Below, in pieces: positions 45,537 to 56,058 of a DNA stretch of 64,000 nucleotides. The stretch comes from Bacteroidia bacterium. GTDB lineage: Bacteria; Bacteroidota; Bacteroidia; J057. Where the stretch lies: positions 1 to 64,000 of the forward strand of contig JAUIGE010000002.1 of the NCBI GenBank assembly GCA_030430205.1, read 5' to 3'. The translations under genes and the position numbers were made by a program. Below the pieces are notes generated by a model that saw only the letters and a program-made list of their open reading frames with translations, had not been told where the DNA came from and did not search any database. Position 1 is the first letter of the stretch. Every line of letters starts with the position of its first letter.

Positions 45537-45673
45537 AGTATGCAGTATGCAGTGGGCAGTGGGCAGTATGTAGTAGGCAGTCGATTACTCCTGTCCACTG
45601 CATACTGCCCACTGTTTACTGCCCACTGTTTACTGCCCACTGTTTACTGCCCACTGTTTACTGCCCACTGCTA
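45537..45673. repeat. Inverted pair of heptamer arrays (AGTATGC / ACTGCCC-ACTGTTT)
   Basis: Left arm (45537-45578): six units of AGTATGC, AGTGGGC, AGTATGT and AGTAGGC. Right arm (45597-45673): eleven units, mainly ACTGCCC alternating with ACTGTTT. The right arm carries the reverse complement of the left-arm core (CAGT versus ACTG), with an 18-base centre. It fills the whole gap between convergent genes; its last unit ACTGCTA contains the stop codon of the minus-strand gene. Confidence 0.95.
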
Positions 45674-47095
45674 CTTGAGCCATAACTTTTTGCGCCAGAG
45701 GCCTTTTTCGCTTGAAATCTCAACAAGGTAAATCCCACTCGCCCTTTCGCCCAAATCTATCTGCTGCCTGAAGGCGAGTTTCACGGATTGTTCCAATATC
45801 ACTTTGCCCTGCATGTCAAGCATGCGAAACATTCCCTGCCCGGCAGAGGCATCAGCGAGCTGAAAATCGAAACGATTTTCGTCCACATGCCAAAACACAG
45901 ACAGCAGTTTTTCGCTTTCTATCGCAGTCAAAGGCACAAACCCATTGAAAAAGAAAATGCTGTTTAAGGTTGCAGGAACGACACAATCGACATGATTGAG
46001 GGTCTCGCCCACGCTGCGGGCCTTCACATCGGCTGCGCCGCGCCTATTCATCACCGAATCGGTGAAGATGCTGTTGGTGTAAAACACCTGGTCATCCCCC
46101 TCGCAGTAAAAAATGCGCGTAGGCGCCTGGGGTGTCCAATCGTAGACATCGTTGAGTCGCATGGCGACATTGAAGGGGTGCGTGCTGTCATGCTGGATCA
46201 GCAGCTGTACGCTGTCTTTGAACATCATGCGCGGTATAGACGCGCCAAAATCCTGGCTCAATTTGTTGATCAGGCGGGTATTCAGAGACCCCAAAGAAAT
46301 TTTTCTATCCAAAAAATCCTGTACCAGGCTATCGTATCCCGGGCGATAGAGATCGCTCAGTTCGGTATAGATATTTCCATAAGCCATCTGAAAAGAATTG
46401 AGGGTATAGGGCAGATAGGAGGGATAAAAATAGGGCGTGTTCAAAAAGAGGTTCCTTTTCATTTCACCCGAAATGCTGTAAGGACCGGACATAGGCGCGG
46501 CCGCTGTCACAGGCAAAGTCTGTGTGTGCCTGGCTTCCAGCTCGCGAAAAAGAGCCATGGCTCCATGGCCACCCTGTGAGTATCCTGAAATGAATAGCTG
46601 TCCGCTCAGGCTGAGTGAAATGCTGGGCGCAAAGCTTTGGGTAGCATACAGCAGATCTATCGCCGCAGAGGCTTCTGTCTGGGCATGTACATAGGGGTGA
46701 AAGCCACGGGAGTCGCCCAGGCCCAGATAGTCTGGGGCTACAACGGCATATCCCATGCTGCCAAAGGCCATCGCCAGCAGGGCTTCGCCCACGAGATTGG
46801 AAGGCACATCGGCCTTGTTGCCAATGGTGCCATGCTGATAGCATATCAGCGGGAGCTGGCCCGGGATATCGGGCACGACGAGGAGGCCCGAGGCGGTATC
46901 GGTGATACCGTGGAGATCGGGCGTCTCGTACTGTATTTTATACAGAAAGACGTCATTGGGCATGGGAATGCCGATTTCGGCAGTGAGCTGGGCAGCGCTG
47001 CGCTGCCCGAGGGGTTGTCCACTTACCAGGCGTTGCGCCTGGAGGGATTGTCCTCCCAGGACAATCAGGAGGAGTAAGCATTTCCAAATTTTCAT
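45671..47095 (-). CDS. Secreted alpha/beta-hydrolase (lipase-like) with T9SS domain
   Basis: A 474-residue exported enzyme (signal peptide 1-20). It has an alpha/beta-hydrolase core: [10 protein letters not shown] near the oxyanion strand, then [10 protein letters not shown] with nucleophile Ser173, and a late acid-His region ([12 protein letters not shown], then LNHVDCV). It looks like bacterial secretory lipases/feruloyl-esterase-like enzymes. The C-terminal 85 residues ([24 protein letters not shown]) form a T9SS sorting domain. It would act outside the cell on esters or lipids. I chose the ATG at 47095 because a signal peptide follows at once. Confidence 0.85.
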
Positions 47096-48488: not shown

Positions 48489-48616
48489 AGTTTTGAGTTT
48501 CGAGTTTTGAGTTTTGAGTTTCGAGTTTTGGGTTTCGAGTTTCGCATTGTGGCTCGGATCCCGAAACCCGGATCCCGAAACCCGAAACCCGGAACCCGAA
48601 ACCCGAAACCCGAAAC
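48489..48616. repeat. Inverted pair of heptamer arrays in a divergent promoter region
   Basis: Left arm (48489-48544): eight units of AGTTTTG, AGTTTCG and GGTTTCG. Right arm (48561-48616): eight units of CCGAAAC, CCGGATC and CCGGAAC. The right arm is the complement of the left-arm core, separated by a 16-base centre. It lies between the starts of two divergent genes, the only array in such a place besides the one at 55014. Confidence 0.96.
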
Positions 48617-48704
48617 CCAACGTCTTCCCAAGTTAAGGCTTGGGCTTTATTTTGAGAAATTATTTCTCAACAGGCGAATTCTGTATATTCGATCTACCAA
48701 TCGA

Positions 48705-51422
48705 ATGAAAAAGGCAATCATCATCTGGATGGCGGGCAGCATGCTGCTTACTGTGGCTGCTGCGCAGGGCGACTGCGGCGATTTCTCCGCCTCTATCACA
48801 CAAGCCACAGCCTTGTACAAGCAACAGCAATACGAGCCAGGCATTCGCCTGATGGAGAAGGCGGTGGCCGCCTATGGGGAAGAGGGATTTCTGGCAGATT
48901 CCTGCCGATATAAGGCTTATCGCCTGCTGGGCGTCATGTATCAGCGAAAAGGCCGGGATGAATGGGCGCTGAAAGCCTATAAGAAAAGCATAGAATCTGC
49001 AGGCAAATCTTTGGGCGAAACGCATTACAGAATTGCCTTTTTGCTGGGGGCCATCAGCGGCATTTATGAACGGATGGCTGATTTTGAATCTGCCCGAAAC
49101 TATTTGGAAAAAGAGGTCAACCTATTGACCCAAAACCCGCCTCCCGAAATCAAAGACCTTTCCATCGCCCAATACAACCTTGCCCGCATGTATTACAACT
49201 TAGGGATGTATGAGGAGTCAGAAAGCTATTTTCTGAAAGCATTGCCGATCTGGATGGAGAGTTTTGGGGAAAATGACCCCAGACTCAAATGGATTTACAA
49301 CAGCCTGGGAGGCATTTATTGGGAAAGGGAAATGCAGGAAGAGGCGCTCTTTTATTACCAAAAAGCTTTGCAGATAGACCTGGCAAACAACGAAGATGTC
49401 ACGCCTGTGAGTTGGACAAAAGGGGAAGAAGCTCTTAGCAGTGGCAGCTATGAGCAGGCGCTTACCTACTACCAGCAGGAGCTGGAGAGCCGCAACCGCA
49501 CTTTCGGCAGGCAACATCCGCTGACAGCTGGCTGCTACAACTATATCGCAAATACCTTGCGCCACCAGCAAAAGTACGAGCAGGCGCTCGATAATTATCA
49601 GCAGGCCATCACACGCTATCTGCCTGATTTTCAGGATGAAAATATCTATGCTTTGCCACAAAGCTTTATCGGTTGCAGTTCGGAGCAGTGGCTGCTGGAT
49701 GCCTTAAAAGGCAAGGCCGAATTGTTTTTTCTTCGCTTCCAGAAAAAAGCGGAAAAGAAAGACCTGGAGGCGGCATTCAGGCATTGCGAATTTGCGTCGC
49801 AAGTCATAGACGCCCTGCGCCTGCGGATGCAGGGGGAGCAATCTCACAGCTTTTGGACGCGCAAGGTGCGGCCCATATATCAGCTCGGCATGGCCGTGAC
49901 CTATGAGCTGTATGCGCTTTCGCAGGATGCTGCATACCTGCAGGCGGCCTTTCATTTCTCCGAAAAAAGCAAAGCTTTTTTGCTGCTTCAGGCGCTTCGC
50001 GAAGACGAAGCCCGCCGCTATGCGGGGGTGCCCGACTCTGTCCTGAGACAGGAAAAAGCCCTGATCAAAGAACTCGCTGACAATGAGCGCTTTTTGATGC
50101 TGGAGCAAAAAAACTGTGAGGCTTCAGACACCATCAAAATTCAATTGCTGCAAGCCCAGATTTTTTCGCTAAAAGAAAAACTCTACGACTGGACCGGGCA
50201 GCTTGCCCGCCGCTACCCGGCCTACCACCAATTGAAATATGAAACCCAAAAGCCTGATCTGAAAGCCTGGCAGGCTGCTTTTTCCCATCCTCAAACAGCT
50301 GTGCTGAATTTTATGGAGACCGATAGCGCCATGTTTGTGCTGGTGATGACAAAGGAAAAAGCGCATTTGCTGAAGGCAATTTGGGGAGATGGCGCGCGCG
50401 CCATGCTTCAGCATTGGCGGAGCTCTCTCTATGATATAGAGAAAGCCCAAACTGATCCTCAGGGCAGCTTTGCTGCTATAACTGAAGAGGGCTATGCCCT
50501 CTATCGGAAACTCATCCAGCCAGCTCATGACTGGCTGCAAAGTCAAGGCGAGACGCATCGTCTGATCATCATCCCCGATGGACAGCTGAGCTATGTGCCT
50601 TTTGAAGCTTTGCTTCAGGAGGAGGTTGGGACCAGGCAGCGTGCTTATGCAGACTTGCCTTTTTTACTCAAAAAATACAGCATCAGCTATGCCTACACCG
50701 CCTTGGGGATGATGGCAAAACAGGCCGCTCCGCCGGGCAGGAGCTATCTGGGATTTGCGCCTGATTATCCTGCGAATGAGGGAGAATCATTGGCTTTCAA
50801 CCGGGAAGAGGTGGAAGCAGCCTCTTCTATCTGGCCAGGGAAAACGTTCTTGAATGAAGCTGCGACCCAGGCACATTTTAATGAAAAAGCATCCCGGGCC
50901 GGTATCCTGCACCTGGCGATGCATGCCGTCCTCAACGACAGCAGTCCGCAATATTCTTACCTGAAATTTTCGGACGAAGTCCTGTATACCTATGAGCTGT
51001 ATAGCCTATCGCTATCGGCGCAGTTGGCGGTCCTGAGCGCCTGCAATACAGGCAGCGGAAAGCTGATAGAAGGGGAAGGCGTGATCAGCCTGGCGCGTGC
51101 ATTTCGATATGCGGGTTGTCCGGCGGTGGCGATGAGCCTGTGGCCCGTAGATGACCAGGCGACTGCTCGCCTGACGACGGCTTTCTTTCACGGCCTGGCC
51201 GAAGGCCGGGCGAAAGATATCGCCCTTCAGCAAGCCAAGTTGGCTTATCTGGCGGAGGCGGAGCCTGCTTTTGCCCATCCTTTTTATTGGGCGGGGATCA
51301 ATTTGATCGGTGAGCGCAGCGCGCTGGAAAAGGGAGGAACTCCCTGGTGGGTATGGGGCATCATCCTGGTCAGTGCCTCCGCACTGGCTCTAATCATTCG
51401 AAGAATGCGGACGAATCGCTAA
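48705..51422 (+). CDS. TPR-CHAT caspase-like protease, membrane anchored
   Basis: A 905-residue protein with signal peptide (about 1-20), about eight TPR-like helical repeats (about 30-400), a linker, and a C-terminal CHAT domain (about 600-865). The CHAT dyad is intact: His740 in HLAMHA and Cys780 in LSACNTG, 40 residues apart. A final membrane helix (about 878-898) is followed by RRMRTNR, so the protease faces the periplasm with a short cytoplasmic tail. CHAT proteins are caspase/separase-type Cys proteases acting after TPR sensing. It is convergent with a locus encoding an outer-membrane-type protein, a TPR anti-sigma and an ECF sigma factor, so that anti-sigma is a natural candidate substrate. 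Confidence 0.9.
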   Translation: MKKAIIIWMAGSMLLTVAAAQGDCGDFSASITQATALYKQQQYEPGIRLMEKAVAAYGEEGFLADSCRYKAYRLLGVMYQRKGRDEWALKAYKKSIESAGKSLGETHYRIAFLLGAISGIYERMADFESARNYLEKEVNLLTQNPPPEIKDLSIAQYNLARMYYNLGMYEESESYFLKALPIWMESFGENDPRLKWIYNSLGGIYWEREMQEEALFYYQKALQIDLANNEDVTPVSWTKGEEALSSGSYEQALTYYQQELESRNRTFGRQHPLTAGCYNYIANTLRHQQKYEQALDNYQQAITRYLPDFQDENIYALPQSFIGCSSEQWLLDALKGKAELFFLRFQKKAEKKDLEAAFRHCEFASQVIDALRLRMQGEQSHSFWTRKVRPIYQLGMAVTYELYALSQDAAYLQAAFHFSEKSKAFLLLQALREDEARRYAGVPDSVLRQEKALIKELADNERFLMLEQKNCEASDTIKIQLLQAQIFSLKEKLYDWTGQLARRYPAYHQLKYETQKPDLKAWQAAFSHPQTAVLNFMETDSAMFVLVMTKEKAHLLKAIWGDGARAMLQHWRSSLYDIEKAQTDPQGSFAAITEEGYALYRKLIQPAHDWLQSQGETHRLIIIPDGQLSYVPFEALLQEEVGTRQRAYADLPFLLKKYSISYAYTALGMMAKQAAPPGRSYLGFAPDYPANEGESLAFNREEVEAASSIWPGKTFLNEAATQAHFNEKASRAGILHLAMHAVLNDSSPQYSYLKFSDEVLYTYELYSLSLSAQLAVLSACNTGSGKLIEGEGVISLARAFRYAGCPAVAMSLWPVDDQATARLTTAFFHGLAEGRAKDIALQQAKLAYLAEAEPAFAHPFYWAGINLIGERSALEKGGTPWWVWGIILVSASALALIIRRMRTNR

Positions 51423-51430
51423 TCCCCTCG

Positions 51431-51477
51431 CTCTCACACTCTTACTCGCTCTGGCGTGGTGAAAGTGAGTGTGAGAG
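51431..51477. terminator. Bidirectional hairpin between convergent genes
   Basis: CTCTCACACTC (51431-51441) and GAGTGTGAGAG (51467-51477) are perfect 11-base inverted repeats with a 25-base loop. It sits between the TPR-CHAT gene and the convergent outer-membrane-type gene and can stop transcription from both sides, though it has no strong T run. Confidence 0.6.
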
Positions 51478-51488
51478 GGTATTGTGCG

Positions 51489-52148
51489 CTAAAATGCAAA
51501 ACCGGCATAAATGCCAAAACCAATCATATCGAGCGGCTTACTTGCCCTGGGGTCAGGTGTTGGGTTGGTGTTCTTCCACCAGGGATAGGTATAATAACGC
51601 ACAGAAGGCATAATGAGCCAGTGTTTGAAAGGGCGAAATTGATAGTCGATACTTGCGAGAAACCCCCAGTCCCTGCCTATTCTACCGTAATAGTATTCGT
51701 GGGTAGTTCCTCCCCAATTTATTTCTAAGTCCCAATAAATTTCTGTAGCATCCCTAAAAGATGGTCCCAAACCAACGAAAAAGTTATGCTTCCAATTTTT
51801 CCTTTGGATTAAATTATATGAAACATACAAATTGACAATGTTTCTATAATCAATCCCTGTCAAATCCCCAGTTCTATAGGGCCTCCCATTGAATGCAAGA
51901 TGGTTAAAAAAATATCCGGCTTCCCGTCCTCCTGCAATCATTATTTTACCCTGAAAAAGAATCCTGGCCAGGTAAGCGGTACCATACTCTGTATCCAGGT
52001 TATTTATGACAGGAATATTGTTCCTGGAGGGTAAGCGGAACGTATTTTTTCCAATGAGAATGATATTGTTGGATAAATTATACTCCTGGGAATAAATGGA
52101 AACGGAAAGGAAGAAAAGGAGAAGGAGGGCTAATATTTTTCTGGTCAT
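51489..52148 (-). CDS. Predicted outer-membrane beta-barrel protein
   Basis: A 219-residue exported protein (signal peptide about 1-20, ending SIYSQ). The rest is rich in alternating aromatic strands, such as NIVNLYVSYNLIQRKNWKHNFFVGLGP and WLIMPSVRYYTY, and ends GFGIYAGFAF with a C-terminal Phe, as in outer-membrane barrels. I do not recognise the family. It lies between the TPR-CHAT gene and the anti-sigma/sigma pair and has the same direction as the latter, so it may be a regulon member or a sensor partner. A 260-base AT-rich gap precedes it; no gene is visible there. Confidence 0.72.
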   Translation of the reverse strand: MTRKILALLLLFFLSVSIYSQEYNLSNNIILIGKNTFRLPSRNNIPVINNLDTEYGTAYLARILFQGKIMIAGGREAGYFFNHLAFNGRPYRTGDLTGIDYRNIVNLYVSYNLIQRKNWKHNFFVGLGPSFRDATEIYWDLEINWGGTTHEYYYGRIGRDWGFLASIDYQFRPFKHWLIMPSVRYYTYPWWKNTNPTPDPRASKPLDMIGFGIYAGFAF

Positions 52149-52408
52149 GAGTTGTACCATATAAGGCATTTAAGGGTATATAAGGTCAAAAAAGGCGATT
52201 TTCTTCTATGTTCTTATACAAACTATATGGTTTTATTTACAAGACATTTCACCCAGTCTAAAGTACAAACAAACCTTTAACCATTTGATTTTTCTAAAAC
52301 CTAATCTATCGTTTCTCTCACATAATCATTTCCCGTCCATATCTGTTTTTTCAAGGAAAGGTTTCGTTTTCTTTCGCTCTGAATAAAAGGGGAACCTGAT
52401 GCCCCTCT

Positions 52409-53176
52409 TCAAGGCGATTCCTGAAAGCCGCCCAACTCCTCCAAAAGCGCATCAACCGCCTTTTTTCGGTAACTGCTTTCTTCAGAAATTTTTTCAAGTA
52501 AAGCCTTCGCTTTCTGCGGCTCACCATTTTTCAAAAAGGCGAGGGCGAGGTACCATTGTGCGGGATGGAAGTAATCGCTGTCCATAGCTGTCACGAAGAG
52601 CAGGTGGCGGATGGCATCTGCAAGCCTGGGGGGATGCTGGGCCAGCTGGCTGACGCCAGCATAAAAATGCACCAGGTAGAGCGGGTGCTGGGTCTGACCT
52701 TGCGCCAGCAAGGATTCAAACTGGCTTGCAGCCAGGCTATAGTTTTCTTCCAGGTAAGCGCTGCGTGCGCTTTCCCAGAGCTGGTCCTGCCCGGCTTGCC
52801 CCCGCAATTTTGCGGGAGGGGGATAGGCCTGGAAGTTTTCTGCGAAAAGGGTATCGGAAGCGGAGGAAGCTGGTTGAAAGAGCCAGAGTCCTGCGAGCAG
52901 TAGGAGAATCGCTGCTGCGATTCCGATAGCGCCCCGCAAAAAGGCGGGGCGACGCCATAGCGGGCGAATCCCGGGCGCATCGAGCTCTTCTTCTATCTCG
53001 CGCAGCGAGTCGATGAAGGCGGCATCGCCGGCGATGTGGATGATATGCTGTGCATCTTCGAAAGCCGCGACCTCGGCTGCCAGGGCCTCATTGGAGGCCA
53101 TTTCCTGCTCAAATGCCTGCCTTAACGGGGCATCCATCTGCTTTCGAACATATTTTTCAATCTTTTCCAACTCCAT
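52409..53176 (-). CDS. Membrane anti-sigma-like protein with periplasmic TPR region
   Basis: A 255-residue protein. The N-terminal 80 residues (MDAPLRQAFEQEMASNEALAAEV) resemble the cytoplasmic anti-sigma start common in Bacteroidota. One membrane helix (82-100) is preceded by RPLWRRPAFLRG, placing the N-terminus inside. The C-terminal half (about 130-250) is TPR-like (WESARSAYLEENYSLAASQF, then WYLALAFLKNGEPQKAKALLEKI). No zinc-binding anti-sigma motif is seen. It starts 11 bases after the sigma gene, the standard arrangement for a sigma factor and its inhibitor. Confidence 0.78.
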   Translation of the reverse strand: MELEKIEKYVRKQMDAPLRQAFEQEMASNEALAAEVAAFEDAQHIIHIAGDAAFIDSLREIEEELDAPGIRPLWRRPAFLRGAIGIAAAILLLLAGLWLFQPASSASDTLFAENFQAYPPPAKLRGQAGQDQLWESARSAYLEENYSLAASQFESLLAQGQTQHPLYLVHFYAGVSQLAQHPPRLADAIRHLLFVTAMDSDYFHPAQWYLALAFLKNGEPQKAKALLEKISEESSYRKKAVDALLEELGGFQESP

Positions 53177-53187
53177 GCTTTCTCGAA

Positions 53188-53784
53188 TTATCGGAGTTCG
53201 CGCAAACTGGCGCGAAGCCCCGGCTGTTGGTCGAGCAAGGCCTGCAAACGCTTCAGGCACTTGTATTTTTTGTTGCGAGCGATTTGCTCATTTTTAAAGC
53301 CCATCTGTTGGGCTATCTCGTCCATGGCTTTGTCGTCATATAAGGAAGCCAGCAATATCTCCTTGCAGCTTTCGCCCAACTCCTCCAGCAAAGCCAGCAC
53401 CATCTGCTGTTTTTCGGAATCTATCATTGGTCGATAGGGATCTATCTGCTGGGGCTCCCATTCGTGATTTTCCAACAATTCGGCCCTGCGGTTTTCCTTT
53501 TTTAATTTTTGGAACCACAGATATTTACAGATGGAAAAAAGATAGGTGCCCAACTGGCTTTCGCCGCGAAATTTCTCAGCGCGAACCTGCTTGTAAAAGA
53601 CAAGCACACCTTCCTGGAAAATATCTTTTCCCTCTGCTTCTGAACCCGTATTTTCTATGATGAAGCGCAGCACACGCTGTTGATGCACCCGATACAATTG
53701 TTTCAGGCACTGGCGTTCTGCCCGGCCTCCCTGACGGAGTCCGGCAATGATTTCCTGATCAGAAAAGTGATGATCGATTGCCAC
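53188..53784 (-). CDS. ECF sigma-70 family sigma factor
   Basis: A 198-residue alternative sigma factor. Region 2 (about 30-105) includes VLRFIIENTGSEAEGKDIFQEGVLVFYKQ and GTYLFSICKYLWFQKLKKEN. Region 4 (about 130-190) includes EILLASLYDDKAMDEIAQQMGFKNEQIARNKKYKCLKRL, a helix-turn-helix for the -35-like element. It directs RNA polymerase to a stress or surface regulon. It precedes the TPR anti-sigma gene. A TPR-CHAT protease gene lies 2.4 kb away, convergent. Confidence 0.93.
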   Translation of the reverse strand: MAIDHHFSDQEIIAGLRQGGRAERQCLKQLYRVHQQRVLRFIIENTGSEAEGKDIFQEGVLVFYKQVRAEKFRGESQLGTYLFSICKYLWFQKLKKENRRAELLENHEWEPQQIDPYRPMIDSEKQQMVLALLEELGESCKEILLASLYDDKAMDEIAQQMGFKNEQIARNKKYKCLKRLQALLDQQPGLRASLRELR

Positions 53785-53871
53785 GGATAGCGATTTGCCA
53801 GGCTTATCATAGGTTAGGTCTTTTCTCTTGGTGGATGCCAGAGCAGAAAACGTAACCGCTGAAAAGCGATT

Positions 53872-54961: not shown

Positions 54962-55013
54962 AAAAGTCTTTTTAATTTGGGAACAAGTTAGGGGAAAAAT
55001 GCTAGTTTGGAAG

Positions 55014-55104
55014 GGGGGCAGAGAGCAGAGATAAGAGAGCAGAGATAAGAGAGCAGAGATAAGAGAGCAGAGATAAGAGAGCAGAGATAAGAGATTGGAG
55101 AATG
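55014..55104. repeat. Heptamer tandem array (GAGAGCA/GAGATAA)x13 ending in a start codon
   Basis: Thirteen 7-bp units: GGGGGCA, then five exact GAGAGCA/GAGATAA pairs (a 14-bp higher-order unit), then GAGATTG and GAGAATG. The ATG of the last unit is the start codon of the GSCFA gene, and GGAGA from the array is its only Shine-Dalgarno. Confidence 0.97.
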
Positions 55105-56058
55105 AAATTTAGGACTGAGATAGAGAAACAGGATTTTCCGTGGGAAATTGGCCATGGGGACCATGTGCTGTCGCTGGGCTCCTGCTTTGCGGAGCGGATG
55201 GGCGCCCGCCTGGCGGGCGCGAAGATTCCCACGACGATCAATCCCCTGGGGATTGCTTACCAGCCGATGGCTATATCCCGCCAGCTGGCGCTGGCGCTTT
55301 CCGATAGCGCGCCGGAGGCGCGGGAGTTGAATGGCCTCTGGCATGCCTTTGAGCTGCACAGCAGCTTTAACCATCCCGATGAAGCCGTTTTTACCCATGA
55401 GGTAAAAAAAGCCCTGAATAGCCTGAAAACCGCCTGGCATCAGGCAAATGTGGTCATGTTGACTTTTGGTACGGCCTGGGTTTATCGCCGCAAAGACAAT
55501 GACGAATGGGTGTGCAATTGCCATAAGTATCCGGCAGCTTTTTTTGAAAAAGAGTTGCTTTCGGTGGATGGGATCGTGGAGGAGTGGAAAAAGCTTTTCG
55601 AAGCATTTCCCTCCAAAAATTTCCTGCTGACGGTCAGCCCGGTGCGCCATACCAAAGACAGCCTTCGGCTGAATAGCCTCAGTAAATCCTGCCTGCGCCT
55701 GGCGGCGCATCAGCTCTCGGCAGCCTTGCCGAATGTGGCCTATTTTCCATCCTATGAGATCATGATGGATGATCTGCGGGATTATCGCTTTTATGAAAGC
55801 GACCTCATTCATCCCAATGAGATGGCGGAGCAATACATCTGGGATTTCTTTTCCAAATCTTTCTTTTCCACAAAAACCCAACAGCTTATCCACAGCTGGG
55901 GAAAAGTACAGCAGTCCCTTCAACATCGGCCATTTCAGCAAGAGAGCGATGCTTATCAGCATTTTTTGCAAAAACTGGAGCAGCAGTTGCGGGATTTATC
56001 CACAGAATTGGATGTAAAAAAAGAATTGGCAGAAGTGTTACTAAAAATAAAAAAATGA
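55102..56058 (+). CDS. GSCFA-domain protein
   Basis: A 318-residue protein of the GSCFA family, named after the GSCFA motif seen here at 26-30. Other conserved parts are LTFGTAWVYRRKDNDEWVCNCHK and LTVSPVRHTKDSLRLNSLSKS and a late YFPSYEIMMDDLRDYRFYESDLIHPN, a set resembling SGNH-type hydrolases (Gly-Ser start, late Asp/His). It may be an esterase or glycan-acting enzyme; the function is not established. The start codon is formed by the last heptamer of the upstream array. Confidence 0.9.
   Translation: MKFRTEIEKQDFPWEIGHGDHVLSLGSCFAERMGARLAGAKIPTTINPLGIAYQPMAISRQLALALSDSAPEARELNGLWHAFELHSSFNHPDEAVFTHEVKKALNSLKTAWHQANVVMLTFGTAWVYRRKDNDEWVCNCHKYPAAFFEKELLSVDGIVEEWKKLFEAFPSKNFLLTVSPVRHTKDSLRLNSLSKSCLRLAAHQLSAALPNVAYFPSYEIMMDDLRDYRFYESDLIHPNEMAEQYIWDFFSKSFFSTKTQQLIHSWGKVQQSLQHRPFQQESDAYQHFLQKLEQQLRDLSTELDVKKELAEVLLKIKK

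Follow-up and report, generated by a model that had tools for sequence, protein, structure and literature searches.

A putative protease-controlled ECF sigma factor system in Bacteroidota: linkage and covariation of exported TPR-CHAT proteins with TPR anti-sigma partners

The 64,000-nucleotide stretch of Bacteroidia DNA analysed here (assembly GCA_030430205.1, contig JAUIGE010000002.1, positions 1 to 64,000; hereafter referred to as the window) carries the genes for an extracytoplasmic function (ECF) sigma factor, its tetratricopeptide repeat (TPR) anti-sigma and an exported cysteine protease homologue in which TPRs are combined with a CHAT domain (hereafter referred to as CHAT). We consider it likely that the three form a protease-controlled ECF sigma system in which CHAT acts on the anti-sigma as its dedicated site-1 protease. 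A sequence-only reading of the window had placed CHAT, with intact His740 and Cys780, beside the sigma factor and a TPR anti-sigma, had made its reading depend on conservation of this linkage in relatives and had suggested that CHAT cuts the anti-sigma. All three genes were found at the positions given there, the linkage extends far beyond the related genomes, and covariation of a candidate cut-site residue of the anti-sigma with predicted S1-pocket residues of CHAT lends independent support to the proposed cut.

A class I anti-sigma domain is encoded near only 6% of the Bacteroidetes ECF sigma factors (PMC7406223), which suggests that most of them may be controlled by other means.

Linkage of the sigma, anti-sigma and CHAT genes

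The sigma factor matches TIGR02937 (E=2e-18), with sigma-70 region 2 and region 4 matches in one short protein, and the ATG of the anti-sigma gene comes shortly after its stop codon. The genome of 7.24 Mb contains 29 CHAT matches, about 22 of them strong and covering the full domain, and 41 sigma region-2 matches. The window sigma is one of a clade of paralogues, almost all of which are followed by a TPR anti-sigma, and in this genome a CHAT gene lies within 9 kb of 9 of the 14 clade sigmas as against 1 of the 31 other sigmas (Fisher p=2e-5). Among 31 genomes, including that of the window, 39 of the 81 matches to the sigma clade are located no more than 9 kb from a CHAT gene. The genes are arranged divergently, convergently or in a single operon, with the anti-sigma and CHAT genes 5 bp apart in one such operon (L089).

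For the phylum-level search, named genomes were queried with the window sigma alone, which yielded 75 Bacteroidota loci. A TPR-CHAT gene is present in 67 of these, and several of the remaining loci end at contig ends. The cassette occurs in the Chitinophagales, Sphingobacteriales, Cytophagales, Flavobacteriales and Saprospirales, usually in the order sigma, anti-sigma and lipoprotein, facing CHAT and a second exported protein upstream of CHAT; the window shows this layout with an orphan outer-membrane-like gene in place of the lipoprotein. The linkage of the sigma and CHAT genes is beyond chance. Distance matrices for 40 linked loci are correlated both between CHAT and anti-sigma (r=0.34) and between sigma and anti-sigma (r=0.32), neither value being reached in any of 2000 within-genome shuffles. 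Co-duplication alone could produce such correlations, and they are therefore evidence of a unit rather than of contact.

Predicted fold and topology of CHAT and the anti-sigma

The 905-residue CHAT protein contains several TPRs and a CHAT domain (Pfam, E=2e-56). Its AlphaFold2 model (pLDDT, the predicted local distance difference test score, 88) combined with fold searches shows a TPR superhelix joined to a separase/Csx29 fold, with the best match to Csx29 (Z 32.6), followed by separase (Z about 27) and DdvA (Z 22). A profile search of PDB with CHAT recovered both DdvA and Csx29, DdvA being the best sequence match (E=6e-9), while the CHAT domain alone, used as a single sequence, gave no match in PDB. 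Among solved relatives, Csx29 and separase are thus nearest by fold and DdvA is closer by sequence profile. His740 and Cys780 are retained without exception among the 54 CHAT proteins that could be aligned from this genome and related ones, and in 62 of the 63 CHAT proteins of a wider set. The window CHAT resembles a clan CD, separase-like protease of the TPR-CHAT family with an intact His-Cys dyad, and would be proteolytically active.

A signal peptide and a C-terminal transmembrane (TM) segment followed by the basic tail RRMRTNR place the TPR and CHAT domains of the protein in the periplasm by prediction, and the same two hydrophobic ends are found in nearly every linked CHAT homologue. The anti-sigma has the traits of a one-TM anti-sigma, namely a gene adjoining that of the sigma factor, an N-terminal helical domain and a single TM segment at about residues 77-99 (52880-52948), with the TPR region following. 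The TPRs fall below the Pfam cut-off by sequence, yet they are clear in the AlphaFold2 model (pLDDT 90.5), which matches the fold of the YbgF TPR (Z 16.1). Prediction thus puts CHAT on the same side of the membrane as the TPR portion of the anti-sigma, as the sequence-only reading had proposed from charge patterns.

A candidate cut site and its covariation with the protease pocket

Arg125 of the anti-sigma lies in the unstructured linker between the TM segment and the TPRs, yet by conservation it ranks within the top three positions of the protein. In 72 anti-sigmas from other families this column holds Arg in 70 and Lys in 2 (Arg in 69, Lys in 2 and Val in 1 when the same 72 are taken from the joint alignment), and the column of Tyr118 holds Tyr or Phe in 71 of them. 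In the family of the window itself, position 125 is either Arg/Lys or Met/Leu, mostly followed by a small residue. Such a pattern resembles that of a P1 residue and makes this position a candidate cut site.

Every well-filled column in the C-terminal 360 residues of CHAT, the part of the protein covered by the scan, was compared between CHATs linked to anti-sigmas of the Arg/Lys class and those linked to the Met/Leu class. Glu702 ranks first, being Glu in 25 of 25 Arg/Lys pairs versus 2 of 13 Met/Leu pairs (p=6e-8), and none of 300 within-genome permutations matched this signal. Among pairs no more than 3 kb apart the separation is complete (20/20 and 0/8, respectively), and the residue is Glu in all 59 pairs outside the family of the window. 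The second-ranked column is that of Ser778, two residues before the catalytic Cys, and Asp817 is among the next.

The literature on P1 recognition was consulted only after the scan. The P1-binding acids of gingipain (Asp163), MALT1 (Asp365) and Caenorhabditis elegans separase (Glu917) follow the first strand, at helix 1 or close to it, and a second P1-binding acid occurs in a later helix in this clan (PMC4626109); a second P1-contact region is also reported in separase (PMC4626109, PMC9729208). The CHAT model has a strand at 680-685 and then a helix at 699-709, near whose start Glu702 lies; Asp817 is the first residue of helix 817-832. By analogy, Glu702 and Asp817 would fall in the two regions through which gingipain, MALT1 and separase bind a P1 Arg. 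In Csx29 a Lys takes the position of the separase acid, and its substrate Csx30 is reported to be cut after Leu407 or near Met427 (PMC9729208, PMC10028731), which would fit the Met/Leu class described here.

One group of CHATs in the genome of the window (L038, L039, L043 and L044) has no sigma factor nearby and carries Gln/Ala/Gly instead of Glu/Ser/Asp at the S1 positions, probably indicating a different substrate. A small exported protein is encoded directly upstream of CHAT in three of these four loci.

Proposed mechanism

The cytoplasmic domain of the anti-sigma would hold the sigma factor at the inner membrane, with the linker and TPRs exposed in the periplasm. Once activated, CHAT, which is predicted to be tethered to the inner membrane as well and to face the periplasm, would cleave the linker on the C-terminal side of Arg125, some 25 residues away from the membrane; the remaining stump would be removed by an intramembrane RseP-type (M50) protease, for which the genome offers several candidates (best M50 match E=2e-58), and the sigma factor would be freed to activate its own operon. 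In most other Bacteroidota it would also activate the CHAT operon as a feedback, which is not visible in the window. We infer the cut, the second cut and the release of the sigma factor from the computed linkage, topology, fold, dyad, linker residue, covariation and promoter.

Several observations weigh against this mechanism. Within the genome of the window, 5 of the 14 sigma-clade members have no CHAT gene within 9 kb, around half of its CHAT genes lack a clade sigma nearby, and the orthologues of the window sigma and CHAT genes in the sister genome are on separate contigs. Two pairs, L073 and L074, both among the distant ones, break the covariation rule. They are probably mispairings, an argument made after the fact: the CHAT at L073 is orthologous to that of the window, and Arg is found in the orthologous anti-sigma of that genome (L075), while the L074 CHAT lies beside a sigma factor whose anti-sigma is beyond the contig end. 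In a CHAT tree built without the covarying columns, Glu702 is lost about three times, each time with a switch from Arg to Met/Leu. So few switches, together with weak deep forks, give low power after correction for the tree, and the well-supported branches alone force one switch. Finally, cleavage by CHAT is itself a computational prediction.

Promoters, partner genes and alternative explanations

The promoter consensus common to the sigma and CHAT operons is GGTTAC-N17-TTACnAAT (also GGTTAC-N17-TTACTAAT). The pattern GTTAC-N17-TTAC precedes 29 of 71 sigma genes, 14 of 49 lipoprotein-CHAT operons and 9 of 55 third genes, with a shuffled expectation of at most 0.06 for the sigma and CHAT operons, and none of the other spacings from 10 to 21 gave more than two occurrences. 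A pattern search across ten complete genomes gave 21 sites, many at the same sigma and CHAT-cassette genes. The window holds one relaxed match, GGTTACGTTTTCTGCTCTGGCATCCACCAA at 53857 on the reverse strand, before the sigma gene, and the same two boxes with the same spacing precede the orthologous sigma gene of the sister genome (L075). Matches scoring as high occur by chance 0-3 times per 64 kb, and the window promoter is therefore supported by its position and its orthologue rather than by its score. No sigma-type promoter was found upstream of the window CHAT gene, and no motif shared by the Saprospiria sigma set emerged from a de novo search.

The first lipoprotein of the cassette can carry DUF4382. 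The genes upstream of CHAT in the phylum loci (L093-L167) encode exported proteins, many with a lipobox, which share the near-invariant C-terminus (K/R)-x-R-P-P-(C/F/Y)-(I/V)-hydrophobic. The R-P-P-(C/F/Y)-hydrophobic tail forms the last residues in 49 of 50 second exported proteins examined; the R-P-P motif occurs in 55 of the 1077 proteins of these loci, in all 55 within the last 14 residues. None of the loci examined in the genome of the window and its relatives has this tail, which therefore cannot explain the protease of the window. In the family of the window, a gene for a protein sorted by the type IX secretion system (T9SS) immediately precedes CHAT in 15 of 41 linked cases, as compared to a background of 10%, and in 3 of 8 cases without a sigma factor. 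Such genes (Por_Secre_tail) were observed directly upstream of CHAT, or between CHAT and sigma, at L034, L046, L048, L066, L077, L079, L081, L084, L086, L087, L090 and L092, and their products are possibly cargo or signal.

These partners raise the alternative that CHAT is an output of the system, being induced by the sigma factor to process neighbouring exported proteins (T9SS cargo in Saprospiria, lipoproteins elsewhere). The frequency of T9SS-sorted proteins upstream of CHAT and the sigma-type promoter before the lipoprotein-CHAT operons (14/49 exact versus 0.02 expected) speak for such a role. However, it leaves the invariant linker Arg and its covariation with the S1 pocket of CHAT unexplained, and the window CHAT has neither a T9SS or lipoprotein partner nor such a promoter. 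We regard it as unlikely, though it is the strongest of the alternatives.

A second alternative accepts the linkage as real but assigns CHAT another substrate; position 125 and Glu702 would covary only because a few paralogue lineages share their ancestry. The small number of independent switches favours it; many columns would then be expected to covary, whereas the top column lies in the known P1-specificity region and the second near the catalytic Cys. Considering also the within-genome permutations and the likely mispairing of the two exceptions, this explanation appears highly improbable. Least probable of all is non-proteolytic control, in which the TPRs of CHAT and the anti-sigma bind and contact alone alters sigma release: both proteins have periplasmic TPR domains, and the CHAT TPRs co-diversify with the periplasmic part of the anti-sigma, but no linked CHAT has lost its catalytic His or Cys, and the strongest covariation in the scanned region falls at the substrate pocket.

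Site-1 proteolysis of the anti-sigma by CHAT may be one case of a broader arrangement. We lean slightly towards the joint proposal that exported TPR-CHATs form an undescribed class of site-1 proteases in Bacteroidota, each serving one sigma/TPR-anti-sigma couple with specificity kept by co-evolution of cut site and S1 pocket, that up to about ten insulated pathways could thereby coexist in a cell, and that in most families the R-P-P lipoprotein could be a pseudo-substrate. Regarding the last part, we speculate, by analogy with securin, that the R-P-P lipoprotein is uncleavable and silences an Arg-specific CHAT in those other families; the idea cannot hold for the window, as no R-P-P tail was found there.

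Comparison with known systems

Craspase (Csx29, Csx30 and CASP-sigma), in which cleavage relieves sigma inhibition (PMC10028731), resembles the window system in its TPR-CHAT fold and in the grouping of protease, inhibitor and ECF sigma genes. The three genes behind its trait of a sigma factor controlled through a protease-cut inhibitor are present here, the cut being one that we infer. In contrast to Craspase, the protease of the window is exported and membrane-anchored, the anti-sigma is a one-TM TPR protein and the S1 pocket is of the Arg type, whereas Csx29 has Lys there and cuts after Leu/Met. The locus lacks Cas7-11, CRISPR RNA and CRISPR, in line with the view of the sequence-only reading that the three parts occur here without CRISPR. 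A CRISPR link was considered and rejected: two RAMP-domain (type III CRISPR-like) genes, the only ones in the genome, lie at G000 contig C31:32691-35286, which has no CHAT gene.

DdvA (PDB 8rot), a transmembrane anti-sigma of Myxococcus xanthus, likewise has TPR-CHAT in an ECF anti-sigma system; its TPR-CHAT part is periplasmic, with an active site described as incomplete, and DdvA controls a defence island. In DdvA the anti-sigma and TPR-CHAT form a single polypeptide, whereas the window has two genes and an anti-sigma with TPRs of its own. In the DegS-RseA-sigmaE system, DegS cuts the one-TM anti-sigma RseA and a site-2 protease follows. The likeness lies in a membrane-anchored periplasmic site-1 protease acting on a one-TM anti-sigma before a site-2 protease, but DegS is a PDZ serine protease while CHAT joins a TPR superhelix to a cysteine protease of the caspase/separase type. 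The EACC2-caspase systems also combine a caspase-type domain, an ECF sigma factor and a TPR protein in one neighbourhood; they differ in caspase family and domain layout, and neither TPR-CHAT nor a TPR anti-sigma is described for them (PMC8195603).

With Csx29 and DdvA as relatives, control of an ECF sigma factor by CHAT through an inhibitor is already known in principle. What appears to be new is the split, two-protein periplasmic form, its spread across Bacteroidota with large sets of paralogues and the co-evolution of P1 and S1. No description of the cassette was found in the open literature searched. If the proposed role of CHAT is true, the cassette would represent a mode of ECF sigma control across five orders of Bacteroidota, the CHAT domain would gain a common role outside CRISPR, and Craspase and DdvA would be tied to a broad family of sigma-controlling proteases. 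It would also provide natural pairs of protease and cut site with switched specificity (Arg versus Met/Leu) that are open to direct testing.

Other features of the locus

Coordinates and supporting evidence for the predicted features of the window
Feature	Coordinates	Strand	Basis
TPR-CHAT cysteine protease, 905 residues, predicted periplasmic, C-terminal TM anchor	48705..51422	+	Pfam, AlphaFold2
Predicted signal peptide of CHAT, residues 1-20 (MKKAIIIWMAGSMLLTVAAA, followed by Q)	48705..48764	+	read from sequence
Glu702, predicted S1-pocket acid matching P1 Arg	50808..50810	+	covariation with anti-sigma position 125
Catalytic His740	50922..50924	+	conservation
Ser778 (covaries with cut-site type) to catalytic Cys780	51036..51044	+	
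Asp817, weaker covarying residue, helix start after Cys780	51153..51155	+	
CHAT C-terminal TM anchor, residues 881-904, basic tail inside	51345..51416	+	
Outer-membrane-like orphan, 226 residues, between anti-sigma and CHAT	51489..52169	-	no homologue in 30 relatives
Anti-sigma, 255 residues: cytoplasmic helical domain, one TM segment, linker, periplasmic TPR	52409..53176	-	
Arg125 of anti-sigma, predicted cut site (P1), TM-TPR linker	52802..52804	-	conservation
ECF sigma factor, 198 residues, GTG start	53188..53784	-	TIGR02937
Predicted autoregulated sigma-operon promoter GGTTAC-N17-CCACCAAG	53827..53860	-	same boxes and spacing before sister-genome orthologue

The outer-membrane-like protein encoded between the anti-sigma and CHAT had been suggested as the sensor or first target gene of the system. 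This suggestion found no support: the protein has no family match, is a lineage-specific orphan without homologues in the 30 related genomes, and is unrelated either to the product of the third gene in the sigma operon of the sister genome or to the usual lipoprotein. It is probably outside the system.

Rfam and tRNA scans of the 64-kb window gave no matches. Short tandem arrays with units of 7 or 14 bases are located near gene boundaries at 45577-45684, 48489-48618 and 55006-55115, the second of these shortly before the CHAT start. An inverted repeat, CTCTCACACTC...GAGTGTGAGAG, at 51422-51489 separates the converging CHAT and outer-membrane-like genes and is perhaps a two-way terminator.

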